DNA of 64,000 nt from Ensifer sp. IC3342. Lineage in GTDB: Bacteria; Pseudomonadota; Alphaproteobacteria; Rhizobiales; Rhizobiaceae. The position numbers and the translations under genes are program-made. The stretch's first letter is position 1, and each line of letters starts with the position of its first letter. Under the pieces are notes generated by a model. The model searched no databases. It had not been told where the DNA came from and worked only from the letters and a program-made list of their open reading frames with translations. Below, in pieces: positions 4,860-37,014 of the stretch. The stretch spans positions 62,001-126,000 of the forward strand of contig NZ_JADYVE010000010.1 in the NCBI RefSeq assembly GCF_020193655.1. Direction: 5' to 3'.

Positions 4860-6644
4860 TTATGGCAGCGTGCTTTGCGCCACATCGTTGCGATTATGCG
4901 AAGAGGCGACGTGAGCAATCTCGCCTGTCGCCGGCGAAGCCGGGAGCCCTGCGGCACGCGTTCGATCAACCAGGCTCCCTGTTATCGCTGCATCCTCGAA
5001 AAGCTCCTGCATGCGCAAATACTCGACGGAGAGCGTCGGGTCGAGCGCAAGGGCCTGCGAGACGAGCTGCCTGGCGCGGTCGAGGTCGGAACAGGCCATG
5101 CGCGCTGCGATCCGATAAATGTAAGTGCGTCGCGTCTGGAATGGCAGTTTGTGCGAGACATCGAACATCTCCTGGTAACGTCCGAGCGTGTACAGCGACG
5201 CGACGCGCTCCTCTGTTATCCAAACCGGTAGAAACGGATCGAGCGTTTCCGCGCGATCGAGAAGTTGGAGCGCTCGTTCGGGCTCGCCTGCAAAGAGATA
5301 GAATGCGGCGCATCGCCCGATCGTGTAAGCGTCGTTGGGCGCCATCTCGATGGCCTTCTCATGATGGAAGCGCGAGGCGGCGAAATCGCCCCTTTTCATC
5401 TTGAGCGAGCCCATGACACGGTGCGCCTCCGGGTCTGTCGGGTCGAGTTCCAGCGCATGCGCCGTCTGTAACTCGCCGAGACGGAGATCGAAACTTGGCA
5501 GCGAGCTCCAGGAGCAGACATGCATGGCGAAGGGCCGGCCGAAGCTCGGATCTGCCTTCATCGCCTTCTCGAACCAGTGCATCGCCTCGTGAAGGTGAAA
5601 GTCGGCGACTCCCGCCAGCCGATGATGGTCAAGGCCGCGGAGATAATGCTCATAGGCGGACATGCTTTCTGGCCGCTTCAGGCGCGCAGCGGCGAGTTCG
5701 GACTGTTCGATCCGACCGGAAACGGTTGCCGCGACGCGGGCGGTGATCTCGTCCATAATGTCGAGAATTTCCTCGAAGGGACGTTGGATGCGATCCGACC
5801 ACACCAGATGTCCCTGCTCCGTCTCTGCGAGCGAGATGTTCAGCCGGACATAGCTGCCGGCCTTGCGGATGGAGCCTGCCACGACATAGTGCACGCCGAG
5901 CGATCTACCGATCTCAACCGGATCGGTCGTTCGCAACACCATCGAGGCTGAGCGCGAGGTGACGAAAAGGCTCTTCAGGCGGCTGAGTTCCAGCGTCAGG
6001 TCGTCGGTCATCCCCTCTGCAAGAAACGTCTGGTCCTGATCCGCGACCGACGTCGTCGTGAACGGAGCGACAGCCACCGAGTTCGGCCTGATCGATGAAG
6101 GCGGTGGCGCCCGCGTCGGCGCGACCTGGAAGCGGTGGCGGTCCATGGCGGCGCCGACGCGGTAGATTTTGACCGGCTCCGACACGCCCTTCAGGTGCCG
6201 TTCGCCGATCGCTTCAAAGGCGCAGGGCGATACGCGCCGGACCTGATCGTAGAGCGCCTCCGAGACCTCGATCTCGCCCGGTTCGGCGGAGGCTTCGATA
6301 CGTGAGGCAATGTTCACGCCGTCGCCGCGCAAGTCGTCGCCGACGACCGCGACATCGGCGAGATGCAGGCCGAAGCGCATGTCATGCGTGCAGGTGCTAG
6401 GCATGGATCCGATGGCCAGCCGCGCCTCCATCGCCGCCCTCAGCGCATTCACCGGGCTCGAGAATTCGGCAAGGATCGCGTCTCCTGCCGTGTTGAACAC
6501 CCTGCCGCCAAAACTCGCCACGACCTCGCCGATCAGGCTCATACAGTCGACGACGCGCGCGATCGTCTGCTCCTCGTCGAGCTCCATCGCCGACGTGGAG
6601 GCCACGAAGTCTCCAACCAGAATTGCAGCCAGCTTCCGATGCAT
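4860..6644 (-). CDS. Class III adenylate/guanylate cyclase with TolB-like and TPR domains
   Basis: 594 residues in the three-part arrangement common in rhizobia. Residues 1-165 are a class III cyclase catalytic domain starting MHRKLAAILVGDF, with the two metal-binding Asp at D12 and D55 (GGRVFNTAGDAILAEF) and the later GDGVNIASRIEA block. Residues of about 190-310 are TolB-like (SVAVAPFTTTSVADQDQTFLAEGMTDDL...). About 330-580 is a TPR array (AHALELDPTDPEAHRVMGSLKMKRGDFAASRFHHEKAIEMAPND). The protein should make cAMP (or cGMP) from the nucleoside triphosphate, with the C-terminal parts acting as sensor or scaffold. No membrane segment is evident. It stands alone, convergent with the polysaccharide cluster. 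Which nucleotide is used cannot be read with confidence. Confidence 0.85.
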   Translation of the reverse strand: MHRKLAAILVGDFVASTSAMELDEEQTIARVVDCMSLIGEVVASFGGRVFNTAGDAILAEFSSPVNALRAAMEARLAIGSMPSTCTHDMRFGLHLADVAVVGDDLRGDGVNIASRIEASAEPGEIEVSEALYDQVRRVSPCAFEAIGERHLKGVSEPVKIYRVGAAMDRHRFQVAPTRAPPPSSIRPNSVAVAPFTTTSVADQDQTFLAEGMTDDLTLELSRLKSLFVTSRSASMVLRTTDPVEIGRSLGVHYVVAGSIRKAGSYVRLNISLAETEQGHLVWSDRIQRPFEEILDIMDEITARVAATVSGRIEQSELAAARLKRPESMSAYEHYLRGLDHHRLAGVADFHLHEAMHWFEKAMKADPSFGRPFAMHVCSWSSLPSFDLRLGELQTAHALELDPTDPEAHRVMGSLKMKRGDFAASRFHHEKAIEMAPNDAYTIGRCAAFYLFAGEPERALQLLDRAETLDPFLPVWITEERVASLYTLGRYQEMFDVSHKLPFQTRRTYIYRIAARMACSDLDRARQLVSQALALDPTLSVEYLRMQELFEDAAITGSLVDRTRAAGLPASPATGEIAHVASSHNRNDVAQSTLP

Positions 6645-6809: not shown

Positions 6810-6834
6810 GGAACGTCCATGCGCCCGGAACGTT
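6810..6834 (+). promoter_or_regulatory. RpoE2/EcfG-type promoter
   Basis: GGAAC at 6810-6814, 16 bases, then CGTT at 6831-6834. This is an exact match to the general-stress sigma factor consensus of alpha-proteobacteria (GGAAC-N16/17-CGTT). It lies 66 bases upstream of the 70-residue ORF at 6901. The GGAAC box overlaps the right arm of a small inverted repeat (TCCCGAA at 6790-6796, TTCGGGA at 6806-6812), which could be an operator. Confidence 0.65.
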
Positions 6835-6900
6835 TCGGATAGGCAGTATCCGGCGAGGCGCCGCCGAGCCGAGCACCCGGGAACAACCTGGAGTGAGGCC

Positions 6901-7113
6901 ATGGAACGAACAAACGCTTGCAAGTTGGCAGAGGAATATCTGCGCCTCGGCGGTCATCGCCGCGTGGTCATCGACGATAACCAGACCTCGGTCAGAACCT
7001 GGGAGCCTGAGCCGGCGGCGGCCGAGGCGTTCTGGAGGAACAACGTCGAAATACTCGGGCCGGAGAGACAGCGCGAGGTGCAACTGCTGCTGCCTACGAT
7101 TAATCGCGCATGA
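6901..7113 (+). CDS. Small conserved-type protein, 70 residues, unknown function
   Basis: The 70-codon ORF opens with ATG preceded by GGAG at a good distance (CTGGAGTGAGGCC), and a general-stress type promoter lies 66 bases upstream. The protein is soluble and charged, with no signal peptide or membrane segment and a single Cys (residue 7). The tail LLLPTINRA is hydrophobic to neutral. A longer in-frame ORF exists from 6712, but the promoter and ribosome site favour 6901. It stands 146 bases before a N-formylglutamate amidohydrolase/QEGLA/ATP-grasp operon. It may be a stress protein cotranscribed with that operon, or a peptide substrate of it; the latter is only a guess. Confidence 0.6.
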   Translation: MERTNACKLAEEYLRLGGHRRVVIDDNQTSVRTWEPEPAAAEAFWRNNVEILGPERQREVQLLLPTINRA

Positions 7114-7259
7114 GGCAGGAGCCCGGCTGATTTCGAGCGAGTGCCGGCGCGTGACGCGCAAGCGGGGCGATTTTTGCGTCCGTGCGCGGAACAGAAATGT
7201 TCGATTCTGAATTGTAGCCGTATCACCGATACGCGGAATGCGGCTGCGAAAGCGTTGAG

Positions 7260-8090
7260 ATGAATGGACCGGATTGCCCGAGCAAGGTGTTGTCGGTGTC
7301 TCTCGACAACGAATGGTGGACTCAGCATCGCGGTGACTCTCCCATAGTTGCCACGGCCATCCATAACGGCCATGCGGTGCGCAACGCAGTCGAACGTCTC
7401 CTTGCTCTTTCGCCCGCGGAACGGCTACGCGAGGAGGATCCTTTCACCGAGTTCATCATCCGCGATTTCCCGAACCGGATTGTCGTTCATCGGTCGCGTT
7501 TTGAGGTCGATATAAATCGCCCCCGCGGCGGTGCGATATACGTGCGGCCGGAACAAGCCTGGGGTCTCAAAGTTTGGACCCGCGAGCCTCCACACGATCT
7601 GGTCGAAGCGTCGTTGGCGATGCATGACGAATATTACGCTATGCTCGAGGCAATGCTCACCGGCATTGAGCGGCGCCATGGACGCTTCGTCGTTCTCGAC
7701 GTCCACAGTTACAACCACCGGCGCGACGGCCCCGAAGCGGAAGCAATGCGGGCGGAAGCGGCGCCGGAGGTCAACATCGGCACATTTTCGATGGATCGTG
7801 TGAAATGGGCCCTGGTGGTGGATGCCTTCGTCGAGACCTTGCGCTCCGTTGACTGGCAAGGACGACGGCTCGACGTACGCGAAAACATCGCGTTTCAGGG
7901 CAGAGGTGAACAAACGCGATTCATCCATGAGCGCTTCCCCGACACGGGCTGTGCGATTGCGGTCGAATTCAAGAAGTTCTTCATGGACGAGTGGACGGGC
8001 GAACCCAACATGGAGGCGCTTGCGGCACTCAGGAAGCTTGTCTCGTCAACGCTGCCGCTGCTTGTGAGCGCGCTGGGAGCGAACCGATGA
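7260..8090 (+). CDS. N-formylglutamate amidohydrolase family protein
   Basis: 276 residues. Family motifs are in order: HNG at 35-37, FEVDINR at 81-87 and DVHSYNHRR at 147-155, which supply the metal ligands and substrate arginines of N-formylglutamate amidohydrolases (FGase, HutG-like). These enzymes hydrolyse N-acyl glutamates. The usual histidine-degradation neighbours (hutU, hutH, hutI) are absent. Instead the gene overlaps by four bases (ATGA) a QEGLA-motif gene and is followed by an ATP-grasp ligase, so the substrate is probably a different acyl- or peptidyl-glutamate. No signal peptide; cytoplasmic. The ATG at 7260 has only a weak ribosome site, and the start is less sure than the family. 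Confidence 0.85.
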   Translation: MNGPDCPSKVLSVSLDNEWWTQHRGDSPIVATAIHNGHAVRNAVERLLALSPAERLREEDPFTEFIIRDFPNRIVVHRSRFEVDINRPRGGAIYVRPEQAWGLKVWTREPPHDLVEASLAMHDEYYAMLEAMLTGIERRHGRFVVLDVHSYNHRRDGPEAEAMRAEAAPEVNIGTFSMDRVKWALVVDAFVETLRSVDWQGRRLDVRENIAFQGRGEQTRFIHERFPDTGCAIAVEFKKFFMDEWTGEPNMEALAALRKLVSSTLPLLVSALGANR

Positions 8091-9961
8091 AACGTGCCGC
8101 CGCACCCGCCCCCAGGGATACGGCAGATGCGCCCGACTGGCTCGCCGAGGCCCTGGTTGCCATCAAGGACGGCAAGGCCGTGCGAAAAGACCTTCCGGAC
8201 GGCGGGCGGCTGCATATCGACCGCGCGCTTCCTTTCGTTTGCCTGCACATTTCTGGCGACGAAGAAGGTCCGGTCGCGCGCGAGATCGCCCAGGCGAATG
8301 CCTCCTACCTCATTGCGCCGGATGCCAACGCCGCTGTCTCGGTCATCGGGGCCATCGGCGCGCTGCTCAAGCAGCGCCTCGGGGCATTCATGGTCCTGGA
8401 AATCGGCGAACTCGCGCGCGACGAACTGTTGACCGACGACGCGCCATATCTTCCGCCATTCAAGATCGAGGTTGCGGCAAGCCCGGAGGGGCCTGCACGG
8501 ATTGCCGCCACGGCGTTCGCCAAAGCCGCCGAGGCGACCGAAGCAAAGTTCCGCACGCCGCGCGTGGAACTGCGTGAAGCCGAAGGGCTGGACGTGCCGT
8601 TTCCCTGTCTTCGCGTGCGATTTGCACCGATCTATCGGCAACGTGAGTCCGGCAACATTTATCCGCAGCTTCGCGAACGGCTGATCGCCAGTATCTTCGA
8701 TGCCGGCCTGCAAGCCTTCGCGGCGTTCGTCAGGGCCACCAAATGCATGAACATCTCGACGCATCGGGCACTCGGCAGAAAGGCCTTCATAGACGCCGTG
8801 GTCCGCACTGACCGCAGTATCGACGAGGTAGCTTCGACCTTCGACTTCCTGCTCGCGGTGACCCCGATCAATGCCGACGCCGCATGGAGCGATTTTGCCG
8901 CGAGCGAGTACCGGCGAGCTCCGCGTTTTCTCTATCGACCGTTGACGCTGCAGGTCGAGAAAGCGAAGAGAAAGCTCTTCTCGATCGCCTTCGACCACCT
9001 CGAAGACCCGGTGCTTTACCAGCTCTACCGCGAAAAGCAGCAAGAGCTCGACCTTCAGCTTTCGTTGCTTTCGGCCCGGGAAACCGCAAAATTCATTGAA
9101 TTCGGCCGCGCCCTCTATGGTCCCGTCGAACCGGAACTCTTGCGGGCAGCGCGCGACATTCTCGTCCGGGCGGGCGACGAGACGGCCAATGCCGGGCCTC
9201 AGGCTGTCGCGGAGCGCCACGCCGATTGCTATTTCGTCGAGCAACAGGCACGCGCGATGATTGCCGAATACCGGCGGCGTTATGCCGGCTTCGACGCCAC
9301 CGTTGAAGTGCGTGACGACCTTCCCTCCGGCCTCATGGTTTCGGGTGACCGGTTGCTAGTTGCACGCAGCACAGCCATGGAAGTCGAACGCGTCGAACCA
9401 ATCTTGAGCCATGAGATCGGCGTCCATCTGCTGACCTATTTCAACGGTTCGGCGCAGGGTCTGCGTCTTTTCCGGTCCGGCCTCGCCGGATACGAAGGCA
9501 TGCAGGAGGGATTGGCAGTCTTTGCGGAGTACCTGACCGGCGGCATGAGCAGCGAGCGGCTGCGCCTCATCGCTGCCCGCGTCGTTGCCTGCGCCGCAAT
9601 GCTTGATGGCGCATCGCTGCCGGAAGCTTATCAGCAGCTTGTCAAGGATCATGGGTTCTTGAAGGCCGATGCCTTCAATGTCGTCTTGCGCGTTTATCGC
9701 AGTGGGGGTCTCGCCAAGGATGCCATATATCTGCGCGGCCTTCTGCAACTCCTCTCCCATTTAGCCGCTGACGGCGCCTTGGAGCCCTTCTGGATGGGAA
9801 AGATCGCCGCTTCGCATTTTGGCGTTATGCAGGAACTGAGTGCCCGCGGGCTGCTTGGTGTGCCGGCAGTGCACCCTATATTTCTTGACAATCCGGAAGC
9901 GCCCTCGCGCCTTGCCAAGGCACGCACGGGAATGTCGCCACTCGATATGGTCGAACGTTAG
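8087..9961 (+). CDS. QEGLA-motif (DUF1704) metallopeptidase-like protein
   Basis: 624 residues. Contains HEIGVH at 442-447, an HExxxH zinc motif, followed by QEGLA at 473-477 whose Glu474 is a likely third ligand. This is the signature of DUF1704, annotated in bacteria as flavohemoglobin expression-modulating QEGLA protein. Its eukaryotic relatives (MATCAP/KIAA0895L) are tyrosine carboxypeptidases that trim tubulin, so a carboxypeptidase role is plausible. The rest is mainly helical, with no signal peptide. The start is the ATG in the ATGA overlap with the amidohydrolase gene; the ATP-grasp gene follows after 9 bases. The three are very probably one operon. The substrate is unknown. Confidence 0.85.
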   Translation: MKRAAAPAPRDTADAPDWLAEALVAIKDGKAVRKDLPDGGRLHIDRALPFVCLHISGDEEGPVAREIAQANASYLIAPDANAAVSVIGAIGALLKQRLGAFMVLEIGELARDELLTDDAPYLPPFKIEVAASPEGPARIAATAFAKAAEATEAKFRTPRVELREAEGLDVPFPCLRVRFAPIYRQRESGNIYPQLRERLIASIFDAGLQAFAAFVRATKCMNISTHRALGRKAFIDAVVRTDRSIDEVASTFDFLLAVTPINADAAWSDFAASEYRRAPRFLYRPLTLQVEKAKRKLFSIAFDHLEDPVLYQLYREKQQELDLQLSLLSARETAKFIEFGRALYGPVEPELLRAARDILVRAGDETANAGPQAVAERHADCYFVEQQARAMIAEYRRRYAGFDATVEVRDDLPSGLMVSGDRLLVARSTAMEVERVEPILSHEIGVHLLTYFNGSAQGLRLFRSGLAGYEGMQEGLAVFAEYLTGGMSSERLRLIAARVVACAAMLDGASLPEAYQQLVKDHGFLKADAFNVVLRVYRSGGLAKDAIYLRGLLQLLSHLAADGALEPFWMGKIAASHFGVMQELSARGLLGVPAVHPIFLDNPEAPSRLAKARTGMSPLDMVER

Positions 9962-9970
9962 GAGCCGGAC

Positions 9971-11017
9971 ATGCGCATCGCCTTTTTCGTCAATTCCATC
10001 GAGGGCGAGGCTACCTATTACGCGACGACGTGGCTTGCGCTCGCGGCGCTCGCCCGTGGTCATGACGTTTGCTACGTGATGCCCGGGGATTTCGTGCTGC
10101 GTTCCGACGACAGCCTGATGGTCCGGGTCACGACCTTGCATGGTCCGAAACCGAAGAAGCCGGAGACGTTGCTGAATGCGCTCAAGGACGAGCGAGCAAA
10201 GGTCAGTACGATCGACATCACGGAAGTCGACGTGCTTTTTCTGCGCAACGATCCTTCGGAAGACGCCGAAAAGCGTTCCTGGGCAGCCTATGCCGGCGTG
10301 AATTTCGGCCATCTTGCGGTCGATCGCGGCGTGATCGTCGTAAACGATCCGACCGGCTTGGCAAGTGCGCAGAACAAGCTCTATTTGCAAGGCTTTCCGG
10401 AACTTGTCCGCCCCACCTCACTGATCTCCCGGAGCATCGAGGAAATCCGGGACTTCATCGATGCGCATCCTGATGGCGTGATCCTGAAGCCGTTGCAGGG
10501 ATCCGGCGGCAAGAACGTCTTCAAGATCAGTTCCAGAGAAGAAGCCAACCTCAACCAGATATTCGAAGTTGCCAGCGGCGAAGGGTACCTGATCGCCCAG
10601 ACCTACCTGCCCGATGCGACCGCTGGCGACATCCGCCTTTTTCTCATGAACGGACGGCCGCTGGAGCGCGACGGTGTACATGCAGCTCTCCGCCGGGTGC
10701 CAGCCAAGGGTGATGTGCGCTCCAACATACACGCCAGCGGTACGCCCGAAGCGGCAACGATCACGCCGGAGATTCTCGCCCTTGCGGAGAAGCTTCGACC
10801 GAAACTGGTGGAAGACGGCATGTTCCTGGTAGGCCTTGACATCGTCGGCGACAAGATACTGGAGATCAATGTCTTCAGTCCCGGAACCCTCCCGGAGATC
10901 GCCGGGCTTTACGGCGTGGATTTCAGCGAGGACATCATCATCGCGCTGGAAAACAAGCTGAGCATCCGACAGCTCTATTCGGGAACATTGTCGAACCGCT
11001 CGCTGGCGACGCTTTAA
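9971..11017 (+). CDS. GshB-like ATP-grasp ligase
   Basis: 348 residues with the plan of prokaryotic glutathione synthetase. An N-terminal Rossmann-like domain (MRIAFFVNSIEGE) is followed by an ATP-grasp domain with the glycine-rich lid (ILKPLQGSGGKNVFKI, near residue 175) and the metal-binding end (MFLVGLDIVGDKILEINVFSPGTLPEI) with the ExN of the family. It should join a carboxylate to an amine with ATP. The genuine GshB of rhizobia is usually chromosomal and stands alone. Here the gene is third in a unit with an amidohydrolase and a metallopeptidase-like protein, so a ligase for a glutamyl or other peptide is more likely than glutathione synthesis. Confidence 0.8.
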   Translation: MRIAFFVNSIEGEATYYATTWLALAALARGHDVCYVMPGDFVLRSDDSLMVRVTTLHGPKPKKPETLLNALKDERAKVSTIDITEVDVLFLRNDPSEDAEKRSWAAYAGVNFGHLAVDRGVIVVNDPTGLASAQNKLYLQGFPELVRPTSLISRSIEEIRDFIDAHPDGVILKPLQGSGGKNVFKISSREEANLNQIFEVASGEGYLIAQTYLPDATAGDIRLFLMNGRPLERDGVHAALRRVPAKGDVRSNIHASGTPEAATITPEILALAEKLRPKLVEDGMFLVGLDIVGDKILEINVFSPGTLPEIAGLYGVDFSEDIIIALENKLSIRQLYSGTLSNRSLATL

Positions 11018-11151: not shown

Positions 11152-12114
11152 ATGAAATTTGCGAAGGCACTCGCGAGTGCAACGATTCTTGCTGCCTGCA
11201 CCTTCGGCAGCGCATCGGCTGCCGAGCTCGTCGTCGGCTTTTCCCAGATCGGATCGGAGTCCGGCTGGCGCGCCGCTGAAACGACGCTGACGAAGCAGCA
11301 GGCCGAGCAGCGCGGAATCGACCTCAAATTCGCCGATGCGCAGCAGAAGCAGGAAAACCAGATCAAGGCTATCCGCTCCTTCATCGCCCAAGGCGTGAAC
11401 GCGATCCTTGTCGCTCCCGTGGTCGCGACTGGCTGGGACGAAGTCCTGCAGGAGGCGAAGGATGCGGAAATTCCTGTCATCCTACTCGACCGCACCGTCG
11501 ATGCATCCGACGATCTCTATTTGACGGCTGTGACTTCCGACCTCGTCCACGAAGGCAATGTCGCCGGCAAGTGGCTTGTTGATACCGTTGCCGGCAAGCC
11601 CTGCAACGTCGTCGAGCTTCAGGGCACGACCGGTTCGTCGCCGGCGATCGACCGCAAGAAGGGCTTCGAACAGGCGCTCTCCGGTCACGACAACCTGAAG
11701 ATCGTCCGCAGCCAGACCGGAGACTTCACACGCACCAAGGGCAAGGAAGTGATGGAAAGCTTCCTGAAGGCGGAAGGCGGCGGCAAGAACATCTGCGCGC
11801 TCTACGCCCATAACGACGACATGGCCGTCGGCGCGATCCAGGCCATCAAGGAAGCCGGCCTGAAGCCGGGCACGGACATTCTCGTCGTCTCGATCGATGC
11901 CGTTCCGGATATCTTCCAGGCCATGGCCGCTGGCGAAGCCAATGCCACCGTCGAACTGACCCCGAACATGGCCGGTCCCGCCTTCGACGCCCTCGCCGCC
12001 TACCTCAAGGATGGAACGGCGCCGGCAAAATGGATCCAGACGGAATCGAAGCTTTATACCCAGGCTGACGATCCGATGAAGGTCTACGAGGAGAAGAAGG
12101 GCCTCGGCTACTGA
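11152..12114 (+). CDS. ytfQ: Galactofuranose-type ABC transporter, substrate-binding protein
   Basis: 320 residues. A cleavable signal peptide (about 24 residues ending SASA) is followed by a periplasmic-binding protein type I fold. The mature sequence is strongly like E. coli YtfQ along its length (VGFSQIGSESGWRAAETT, APVVATGWDEVLQEAKDAEIP, VELQGTTGSSPAIDRKKGF, AHNDDMAVGAIQAIKEAGLKPG). YtfQ binds galactofuranose in the periplasm. The start at 11152 is set by GGGAGGAAATC directly upstream; an earlier in-frame ATG lacks a ribosome site and spoils the signal peptide. First gene of a unit with ytfR, ytfT and yjfF. Confidence 0.92.
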   Translation: MKFAKALASATILAACTFGSASAAELVVGFSQIGSESGWRAAETTLTKQQAEQRGIDLKFADAQQKQENQIKAIRSFIAQGVNAILVAPVVATGWDEVLQEAKDAEIPVILLDRTVDASDDLYLTAVTSDLVHEGNVAGKWLVDTVAGKPCNVVELQGTTGSSPAIDRKKGFEQALSGHDNLKIVRSQTGDFTRTKGKEVMESFLKAEGGGKNICALYAHNDDMAVGAIQAIKEAGLKPGTDILVVSIDAVPDIFQAMAAGEANATVELTPNMAGPAFDALAAYLKDGTAPAKWIQTESKLYTQADDPMKVYEEKKGLGY

Positions 12115-25800: not shown

Positions 25801-25825
25801 GGAACCGAACATGGGCTGAAGCGTT
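25801..25825 (+). promoter_or_regulatory. RpoE2/EcfG-type promoter
   Basis: GGAAC at 25801-25805, a 16-base spacer, CGTT at 25822-25825. An exact match to the general-stress consensus, placed 29 bases before the ATG of the DUF1772-like gene at 25855. Confidence 0.7.
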
Positions 25826-33944: not shown

Positions 33945-34091
33945 AAAAACATCTCCGATTTAACTACTCGGTCTCCTCCGCGGATCCTGCCGGTCTCCAC
34001 TCCACCGGCGAGGGAAGCTAACATCAGGTTTGCCGAGGATCTACCCATGTGACCTTGGGGGTTCGCAGGCAGGCGGCCTCCGTGCCTATCC

Positions 34092-34116
34092 GGAACAAAC
34101 CAGCCCGTGCGGCGTT
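34092..34116 (+). promoter_or_regulatory. RpoE2/EcfG-type promoter of the HWE kinase operon
   Basis: GGAAC at 34092-34096, a 16-base spacer, CGTT at 34113-34116. An exact match to the general-stress consensus, 33 bases before the ATG at 34150. Because it lies inside the longer open frame, it supports the later start. Confidence 0.7.
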
Positions 34117-34149
34117 TCCCGGGGTCAGCGAGCGCTTGCGGAGGGACCT

Positions 34150-37014
34150 ATGTGCAGCGCGGAGGCTCTGCCGAAAAATTTGAGCAGCAAGATCGGAACT
34201 TTGGATTCGCCGGATCTTCGGGCGGTGTTGGACGCATTGCCCATGGCGGTCTACGCCACGGACCCAGAGGGGATCATAACCTACTTCAATCAGGCGGCCG
34301 CGGATCTCGCCGGCAGGGAACCATGGCTGGGCAAGGATCGTTGGTGCATCAGTTGGGAATTGCGTCGTGCGGACGGATCAATTCTGCCCCATGACGAGTG
34401 TCCCATGGTCCAGACGCTCAAGGAAGGACGAGCCATAAGGGGGCATGGGATTGTGTCTGTGCGCCCGGATGGAACGATGGTTCCTATCCTTCCCTGCTCG
34501 ACACCGATCTTTGACAAGTCGGGGATGATGACGGGGGCGATCAATCTCCTTGTCGACATCAGCGAACGAAACGGCTCGGAAACTATTCTGGATGCGGAGG
34601 CCGAGCGAACAGCGGTCCTGGACCCGGTCGTTTCCCGCTCCGGCGAAGTACACGCAGCAACAGCGATCGACGACGCAGATTCGCCACTCGCCAGCCAGCA
34701 TGAGGCTGAACGCCGCCTAAGGGCCGAACGGGATTCCCAATATCTCGCCGCGATCGTCGAGTCTTCCGACGATGCCATCATCAGCAAGGACTTGAACGGC
34801 ATCATCAGCAGTTGGAACAACGGAGCCGAACGTCTTTTTGGCTACGCCGCCGATGAGGTGATCGGGAAGCCGGTTACCATTCTCATACCGCCCGGCCATG
34901 AGGATGAGGAGCCCCATATCCTCGATCGCATCCGCAATGGAGTGCGCATCGATCACTACGAAACGAAGCGCCGACGCAAGGACGGAAGCCTTGTGGATAT
35001 CTCGCTCACGGTTTCGCCCGTTCGTGACGCCACGGGCCGCATAATCGGCGCCTCGAAAATTGCCCGCAACATCACTGAACAGAAGCAAGCCGAACAGACA
35101 ATGCAAGCGCGTCTCCGCGAGCAGGCTTCACTTTACCACCTCACCGAAAAGCTTCACCGTGCCAATGGCACTGAAGAGATCTACGACGCGGCGTTGGACG
35201 CCATTAGAGCGGCGCTCAACTGCAGCCGCGCGTCGATTCTGTTATTCGACCAGTCCAATACAATGCGTTTCGTCGCCTGGCGTGGATTATCGGAACGTTA
35301 CCGCCATGCCGTCGACGGCCATTCTCCATGGACTCCGGACGCCCGCGATCCGGATCCGATCTTCGTTGAGGACGTGACTAGGGCCGACTTTTCCGACGAG
35401 CTCAGAGCGACAATCGCATCGGAAGGCATTGCCGCACTCGGGTTCATTCCCTTGATTACCGGAGGACGGCTGATCGGCAAGTTCATGGCGTATTACGACA
35501 GGCCGCATGCGTTTAGCGAGACGGAGATCAGCCTCGCGCTGACAATCGCACGACAGCTCGGCTTCAGCATCCAACGCATCCGAGCCGAACGGGCAAGGCA
35601 ACTCGCGGAGGAGCAACTGCGACGCAACGAGGCCAACGAACGGGCACGCGCGGCGGAACTGCAGGCCATTATGGAGGCTGTTCCGACCCCCATCTGGATC
35701 ACGCGAACGCCCGACTGCCGTGTCATCGACGGTAACCGAAGCGCTTACGAACTGCTCCACCTGCCGCCAGGTTCGAACCTTTCATTTTCGGCGCCCCCTG
35801 ATGAGCGGCCGTCCGGGTTTCAGATCTTCTCGGCGGGCAGGACGTTGTCGGCCGATGAACTGCCCGTGCAGCGCGCCGCAGGCGGAGAAGAGGTCGAAAA
35901 CTTCGAGGAGGAGATCCGGTTCGATGATGGTAGATCGCGCCATCTCCTCGGCAACGCGACCCCGTTGCGAAACGCTCTTGGAGAGCTAACGGGCGCGGTG
36001 GCCGCCTTCATTGACATCACGGAGCGCAAGCAGACAGAAGAAGCCCTTCGAGAAAGCGAGCGCCGGCTGAAAATGGCTCTGGATGCCGGGCGGATGGGCG
36101 CTTGGGAGTGGAACCTGCAGAGCGGCCGGGTGATCTGGTCACCCGGGCTTGCGGTGCTTCATCATCTCGAGCCAGGAGCATGCGAGGGAACACTTGCCGA
36201 TTTCGAGCGTGATATTCATCCGGCCGACCTTCCGGCCGTCGAACAGGCGATCGAGAGGGCCCTTGCGAGCCGCGAGGACTATCATGTCGCCTACCGCATG
36301 CGTCTTCCCGACGGGACGATACGCTGGATGGAAGCCATTGGCCGGTTCTCGCCCTCAGACGGCCCGGCGGGTGCACGCCTGGCCGGCATTTGCATGGACA
36401 TCACCGAGCGAAAGGAGGCTGAAGCGCAGAGGGACCTGCTGGTCGCTGAACTCAGCCATCGTGTGAAGAACACGCTGGCCACCGTCAACTCCATCGCACG
36501 GCAGTCTTTTTCGACGAACCCGGACGCGCGCGATGCGCAGCGATCGTTCGATGCCCGCATCCGGGCGTTGGCACAAGCGCATACCCGTCTTGCGGAGGCC
36601 AGGTGGTCGGGAGTCTCTCTTGAGACCATATTCTCCGATGAGCTGGCCCCCTATCGAAGCGAGAACAACATCTCTCTCGACGGCCCACCAACGACTCTGC
36701 CACCCAAACATGCCCTGACCCTCGGCATGGCCGCGCATGAGCTTGCCACCAATGCCGCCAAGCATGGCGCGCTTTCCGTAAAGGCTGGTCGCGTAAGTGT
36801 CGATTGGGCTGTCGACCCAAGTGAGAACCGGCTTTGCATCCGCTGGTGCGAGACGGGGGGCCCTCCCGTCTCACCGCCAAGCCGCAACGGTTTCGGCCGC
36901 TTGCTCCTCGAACGGGTCCTCGCTTCCGACCTCGGCGGTGATGTCCGCCTGGAGTTTGCGTCGCAAGGGCTGAGCTGCACGATCGACGTGCCCTATCTCA
37001 GGGGTGCCCAATGA
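34150..37014 (+). CDS. exsG: Multi-PAS HWE-family sensor histidine kinase (ExsG-like)
   Basis: 954 residues. Several PAS domains are visible, with a GAF domain between them: PAS at about 20-130 and 200-320 (YLAAIVESSDDAIISKDLNGI...), GAF at 330-480, then PAS at 500-620 and 635-760. The kinase starts at H770 (ELSHRVKNTL, the H-box of HWE kinases), with the N-box HELATNAAKHGALS and ending VRLEFASQGLSCTIDVPY. No membrane helix, so a cytosolic sensor. ATG 34150 has GGAGGG five bases upstream and a general-stress promoter just before; the longer frame is rejected. HWE kinases often signal to PhyR-type stress regulators. It overlaps exsF (ATGA). The symbol is by likeness to the pSymB genes and is probable, not proven. 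Confidence 0.87.
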   Translation: MCSAEALPKNLSSKIGTLDSPDLRAVLDALPMAVYATDPEGIITYFNQAAADLAGREPWLGKDRWCISWELRRADGSILPHDECPMVQTLKEGRAIRGHGIVSVRPDGTMVPILPCSTPIFDKSGMMTGAINLLVDISERNGSETILDAEAERTAVLDPVVSRSGEVHAATAIDDADSPLASQHEAERRLRAERDSQYLAAIVESSDDAIISKDLNGIISSWNNGAERLFGYAADEVIGKPVTILIPPGHEDEEPHILDRIRNGVRIDHYETKRRRKDGSLVDISLTVSPVRDATGRIIGASKIARNITEQKQAEQTMQARLREQASLYHLTEKLHRANGTEEIYDAALDAIRAALNCSRASILLFDQSNTMRFVAWRGLSERYRHAVDGHSPWTPDARDPDPIFVEDVTRADFSDELRATIASEGIAALGFIPLITGGRLIGKFMAYYDRPHAFSETEISLALTIARQLGFSIQRIRAERARQLAEEQLRRNEANERARAAELQAIMEAVPTPIWITRTPDCRVIDGNRSAYELLHLPPGSNLSFSAPPDERPSGFQIFSAGRTLSADELPVQRAAGGEEVENFEEEIRFDDGRSRHLLGNATPLRNALGELTGAVAAFIDITERKQTEEALRESERRLKMALDAGRMGAWEWNLQSGRVIWSPGLAVLHHLEPGACEGTLADFERDIHPADLPAVEQAIERALASREDYHVAYRMRLPDGTIRWMEAIGRFSPSDGPAGARLAGICMDITERKEAEAQRDLLVAELSHRVKNTLATVNSIARQSFSTNPDARDAQRSFDARIRALAQAHTRLAEARWSGVSLETIFSDELAPYRSENNISLDGPPTTLPPKHALTLGMAAHELATNAAKHGALSVKAGRVSVDWAVDPSENRLCIRWCETGGPPVSPPSRNGFGRLLLERVLASDLGGDVRLEFASQGLSCTIDVPYLRGAQ

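Follow-up and report, generated by a model that had tools for sequence, protein, structure and literature searches.

What do an amidohydrolase, a peptidase, and an ATP-grasp ligase accomplish together in one compact bacterial operon? The question is raised by positions 6810-11017 of a 64,000-nucleotide stretch of Ensifer sp. IC3342 DNA (contig NZ_JADYVE010000010.1, positions 62,001-126,000), the whole of which is termed the window. At this Sinorhizobium/Ensifer locus, a promoter sequence, a short open reading frame (ORF70), and genes for an N-formylglutamate amidohydrolase-like protein (NFGAH), a MATCAP/DUF1704 peptidase, and a GshB-like ligase are found, every one on the + strand, and the closest matches are from Ensifer sp. 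MPMI2T and S. terangae. The three enzyme genes form a near-obligate module. The reading we favor, tentatively, is that they perform a self-contained, reversible cycle of amino-acid ligation and hydrolysis with links to stress, with either a small peptide or the C-terminus of a protein as the acceptor. The features of the locus are as follows.

6810-6834, + strand: candidate EcfG/RpoE2-type promoter sequence, exact match to GGAAC-N16-CGTT
6901-7113, + strand: ORF70, a small conserved protein of 70 codons loosely linked to the operon; ratio of nonsynonymous to synonymous differences (pN/pS) 0.25
7260-8090, + strand: NFGAH, an FGase-family zinc amidohydrolase, not HutG (PF05013, 81.6 bits)
8087-9961, + strand: MATCAP/DUF1704 zinc peptidase with an extra N-terminal domain (PF08014, 301.9 bits; TIGR02421)
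8195-8740, + strand: decayed NFGAH domain in MATCAP, about residues 37-218
8849-9949, + strand: MATCAP catalytic domain, about residues 255-621
9410-9427, + strand: HEIGVH zinc and catalytic motif of MATCAP
9503-9517, + strand: QEGLA motif of MATCAP with the third zinc ligand
9971-11017, + strand: GshB-like ATP-grasp ligase, NF009110 subfamily (472.5 bits)
10994-11014, + strand: conserved C-terminal tail of the ligase, NRSLATL

The Three-Gene Module

An earlier note on this DNA described a three-gene operon joined by a 4-base overlap and a 9-base gap. The coordinates agree, with NFGAH and MATCAP sharing the bases ATGA (8087-8090) and nine bases (9962-9970) separating MATCAP from the ligase. 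The arrangement is strongly kept among relatives. In a scan of a genome collection, the best 80 of 110 confirmed matches to the window MATCAP protein were taken as named Rhizobiales loci, a set that leans to close relatives because it was chosen by similarity to the window's own protein. All 80 carry NFGAH, MATCAP, and ligase on one strand in the same order, and the gap between MATCAP and the start of the ligase alignment is at most 30 bases in 78.

A phylum sample of 249 Pseudomonadota genomes is free of this lean. MATCAP occurs in 23 of these genomes with 28 matches, comprising 16 short copies (class B), 10 long or fused copies (class A, window included), and two fragments, one with a broken frame in G240 and one on a piece of G113 (contig C132) that was not fetched. 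The ligase adjoins MATCAP in nine of the ten class A copies, the exception being L127. Viewed from the ligase, 10 loci in 8 of the 249 genomes pass the NF009110 cut-off, counting the window. Nine adjoin MATCAP, and the tenth begins 48 bases away from the end of its contig. NFGAH is present in six of the seven ligase loci with upstream sequence available, adjacent or fused in four, a count that leaves out L131 and L133, both cut by contig ends. The neighborhood check proposed in the earlier note, co-occurrence of the three families in other genomes, is thus borne out by the named loci and the phylum sample alike.

In the gammaproteobacterial order around G243, the ligase is found in 13 of 197 genomes. 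Every one of these 13 loci consists of just two genes, one for the ligase and one for an NFGAH-MATCAP fusion of 659-672 residues that retains both active-site sets. Complete three-gene units also occur in distant alphaproteobacteria (L215 and L216), with ligases that score below the NF009110 cut-off (404.3 and 377.2 bits). The distribution of the module is scattered. Within the window's genus, 29 of 30 genomes have MATCAP, but it is missing from all 10 phylum-sample genomes that represent the rest of the family, and the ligase is found in 3 of 289 genomes of a class sample, window included. That a ligase is accompanied near-obligately by two hydrolases suggests that the three enzymes share one substrate.

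Catalytic Residues and Domain Architecture

The module, its architectures, the kept and lost catalytic residues, and the folds of two predicted models are seen directly. The family names given in the earlier note (amidohydrolase, DUF1704, and GshB-like) hold up in the scores for PF05013, PF08014, and PF02955. NFGAH passes the PF05013 (FGase) gathering score (81.6 versus 28.9 bits) and fails the HutG equivalog TIGR02017 (24.5 versus a cut-off of 278.75), and it is the lowest-scoring of the five PF05013 proteins in the genome. Its residues H35, E58, E59, R80, N86, R87, H149, and E236 are invariant in 10 aligned relatives, and this H..EE..R..NR..H..E series resembles the substrate residues of M14/aspartoacylase enzymes.

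The window MATCAP passes both the PF08014 gathering score (301.9 versus 27 bits) and the TIGR02421 cut-off (354.7 versus 338.65). Every one of the 86 class A proteins retains the two histidines and the glutamate of HEIGVH, as well as the third-ligand glutamate of QEGLA, and HExxH with the third-ligand glutamate is likewise found in 13 of 13 NFGAH-MATCAP fusions. QEGLA aligns with EGLA of human MATCAP, the catalytic residues of which are retained in the bacterial protein. A new anatomical point is that a decayed NFGAH domain makes up the first third of the long MATCAP proteins. In the split form, this dead second NFGAH domain is probably a docking part. The 16 class B proteins (L109-L124) all keep HExxH, as HE..VH or HE..IH, and QEG[LM]A, and none has a match to an NFGAH-type domain at its N-terminus.

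The ligase scores 177.2 bits with PF02955 and passes the cut-off of NF009110 (PRK12458 subfamily; 472.5 versus 408). It fails both GshB equivalog models (TIGR01380, 196.4 versus 299.05) and the RimK alpha-glutamate ligase family TIGR00768 (rimK_fam; 70.3 versus 143.4). The predicted ligase model has the GshB fold, with GshB as its closest structural match and RimK next, and a separate, true gshB lies on another contig of the genome (388.3 bits). The C-terminus of the ligase is conserved. The last residue is leucine in 87 of 87 proteins and the end is usually ATL; TL closes the sequence in 75 of the 80 Rhizobiales proteins and in all 7 distant copies. Among 21 GshB proteins, of which 20 were classed as such only because they score under the NF009110 cut-off, the end varies and the conserved tail is absent.

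Proposed Mechanism

In the proposed cycle, the ATP-grasp ligase would act like GshB and RimK, activating a carboxylate and attaching an amino acid to it. Either the C-terminal end of a protein or a small peptide would serve as the acceptor. MATCAP, as a zinc carboxypeptidase, and NFGAH, as a zinc amidohydrolase of the M14/aspartoacylase type, would remove or trim the residue that the ligase adds. The hydrolase folds of both families cut amide bonds next to a free carboxylate. Both enzymes look suited to amides with a free-carboxylate amino acid as the leaving group and therefore would undo the ligation. We infer this chemistry and its direction, along with the acidic residue, the stress role, and the docking role discussed in this report. 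The make-and-trim cycle for a peptide suggested by the earlier note gains partial support in this way: the near-obligate module, folds, and residues fit it, but the N-formylglutamate (HutG) and glutathione pathway labels fail.

Neighboring genes also bear on the mechanism. Directly after the module in three loci of one genus (L129, L131, and L133) are genes for an RloA-like peptidase and an RloB-like protein, whose matches fall under the cut-offs (about 111-121 versus 210 for RloA; 414-427 versus 900 for RloB). The NCBI name of RloB refers to osmotic stress tolerance. A RimK-related glutamate ligase also follows the module in L129 and L133 (447.1 and 451 versus a cut-off of 314.2) and was not found in L131. 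Two amidoligase systems thus stand side by side in this genus. In L127, an AstE/AspA-type hydrolase of the same fold class replaces NFGAH, which we count in favor of the cycle. A reversible ligation cycle with stress links is favored because of the folds and residues of the ligase and hydrolases, the Rlo and RimK neighbors, and the osmotic-stress name of RloB. The near-obligate linkage, the NFGAH-MATCAP fusion next to the ligase, and the excess of ECF-type sites before NFGAH also count for it.

Several points weigh against it. The added residue is perhaps acidic, a suggestion for which family analogies are the sole basis. The same L127 (6158-9110) has a class A MATCAP without a ligase, overlapping the AstE/AspA-type gene by 20 bases. 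NFGAH lies 1.4-2 kb from MATCAP in L128 and L132, and none is near it in L130. Neither ligase nor NFGAH was found in the fetched stretches of the 16 class B loci, and therefore MATCAP can act alone.

Alternative Substrates and Roles

The strongest competitor, possible though less probable than the proposed cycle, confines the module to small molecules. A second glutathione-like or gamma-glutamyl peptide, made by the ligase, would serve as a stress compound and be turned over by the hydrolases, with no protein modified. The ligase, however, scores under both GshB equivalog cut-offs in a genome that already has a true gshB, and the MATCAP relatives of known function act on protein tails.

It is doubtful that the module runs a code on protein tails, in which the ligase would write a C-terminal amino acid and MATCAP and NFGAH would erase it. 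The ...ATL end of the ligase would then serve the MATCAP pocket as a docking ligand, a pseudosubstrate, or a target. The last residues of the ligase are kept across distant bacteria and its gene directly follows that of the carboxypeptidase, which fits the needs of a tail-editing system. If true, such a code would be a prokaryotic counterpart of tubulin tail editing. Small DUF413 (PF04219) proteins with acidic tails are a second, weaker candidate for the code. Four of the 13 fused loci (L126, L177, L185, and L187) have a DUF413 gene upstream of the ligase, and in L177 another copy follows the fusion. As a module-specific acidic-tailed substrate, DUF413 was rejected: acidic tails are also common elsewhere in the same genomes, with at least seven acidic residues in the last 15 for 13 of 15 copies elsewhere versus 4 of 5 module-adjacent copies.

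A purely catabolic role is improbable. Here the module would scavenge N-acyl or gamma-glutamyl amino acids and the ligase would salvage the products, a view suggested by the hydrolytic look of two of the three enzymes and by the sugar ATP-binding cassette (ABC) transporter that comes next in Sinorhizobium. The binding protein of that transporter, however, is of the galactofuranose type (YtfQ, 600 versus 510), transporter families are common to at most 20 of 90 compared loci, and a ligase that spends ATP stands beside 13 of 13 fused forms.

Identifying the substrate would assign a function to the whole subfamily and reveal a MATCAP-type role with a dedicated ligase. The fused two-gene form offers a compact laboratory handle.

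Promoter Sequence, ORF70, and Flanking Genes

The earlier note also placed an exact GGAAC-N16-CGTT sequence and a 70-residue reading frame upstream of the operon, and both are there. The promoter sequence consists of GGAAC (6810-6814), a 16-base spacer, and CGTT (6831-6834). Exact GGAAC-N16/17-CGTT sites number four on the + strand of the window and none on the - strand. The other three are at 25801, 34092, and 34317, of which the latter two are at the 5' end of a long reading frame (34030-37014) that by eye resembles a PAS sensor kinase. Across the named loci, 15 of 80 have an exact site of this extracytoplasmic function (ECF) type in the 600 bp upstream of NFGAH, versus about 1.0 expected. 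Ten of the 15 carry ORF70, and in the other five (L015, L016, L017, L064, and L073) the site precedes NFGAH by 81-116 bases. A relaxed pattern gives a site within 250 bp in 10 of 80 loci, versus 0.88 expected. Because related loci do not count as independent cases, the excess is no more than indicative. These sequences make stress control of the operon plausible in several lineages.

ORF70 is coding, with pN/pS of 0.25 in frame versus 1.67 and 1.95 in the other frames (91 pairs from 14 sequences, including L051, whose start codon is ambiguous). The S. meliloti annotation has a 70-codon hypothetical protein at its place, and ORF70 has no match in Pfam or NCBIfam. Within the genus it occurs in 29 of 30 genomes. 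Both ORF70 and MATCAP are present in 28, at most 4 kb apart in 22 and unlinked in 6. Upstream of the module it is found in 13 of the 80 named loci, and in 10 of these 13 the promoter sequence is kept in register before it. The exact site also precedes three of seven unlinked copies examined. ORF70 and the promoter are therefore partly independent of the operon and not fixed parts of it, and ORF70 was rejected as an obligatory core component. Of the stress-promoted operon in the earlier note, the exact EcfG-type sequence and the excess of sites remain, but a promoter and ORF70 fixed to the operon do not.

A substrate or precursor role for ORF70, as in a ribosomally synthesized and post-translationally modified peptide (RiPP) or a tagging system, would make its C-terminal LPTINRA the site of modification. 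That end is invariant in all 13 ORF70 sequences other than L051 and in 7 of 7 unlinked copies, and the gene is coding and upstream. This role is nonetheless very unlikely, given the few linked loci, the six genomes in which the genes are apart, and G259, a genome of the genus where ORF70 persists and MATCAP was not found.

Just upstream of the promoter (4860-6644, - strand) is a divergent gene for an adenylate/guanylate-cyclase-like protein with TPR repeats. Directly downstream of the ligase (11152-12114, + strand) is YtfQ, the transporter binding protein, and the S. meliloti pSymB annotation has the same order. Reading frames near L215 and L216 resemble, by eye, CBS-domain proteins and a ribosome hibernation factor, as would suit a stress neighborhood. 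An Rfam scan of the window at the gathering score gave no RNA-element matches. A defense system was rejected, as PADLOC models gave no matches for four of four proteins.

Annotated Names and Known Systems

Relatives of the three proteins are annotated as glutathione synthase, N-formylglutamate amidohydrolase, and a peptidase named for an effect on flavohemoglobin, and the evidence says that these names mislead for the module. Regulation of flavohemoglobin, the least probable of the roles weighed, is what the TIGR02421 name states, and a Pseudomonas fhp study reportedly lies behind it. That model favors the two class B proteins tested (434.7 and 451.8) over three class A or fused proteins (354.7, 346.7, and 406.3), and therefore the short class may be where the name originated; the name is also silent on the ligase. 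A histidine or glutathione pathway is not supported, given the failed HutG and GshB equivalog cut-offs and the true gshB elsewhere in the genome.

ATP-grasp ligases with partner peptidases are a kind of system already known, and the amidoligase survey of Iyer and colleagues (2009) may already include this neighborhood. As far as we can tell, the novelty lies in this gene combination, in its fused and pseudo-enzyme forms, and in the tail of the ligase, although an earlier description is possible. NFGAH shares the PF05013 family with the N-formylglutamate deformylase HutG but fails the HutG model. Class B MATCAP (QEGLA) proteins belong to the same family as the window MATCAP and share its HExxH, but lack the match to an N-terminal NFGAH-type domain. 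Compared with human MATCAP, the tubulin tyrosine carboxypeptidase (7z5g/7z6s), the bacterial form works without tubulin and adds a decayed NFGAH domain and operon partners. The window ligase shares the fold of GshB (1gsa) but fails its equivalog cut-offs, and is a second copy bearing a conserved C-terminal tail that GshB proteins lack. Finally, where RimK/RimABK and the Rlo amidoligase-peptidase systems use a RimK-type ligase, the module uses a GshB-type one, and in place of a RimB-type peptidase it has MATCAP and NFGAH.
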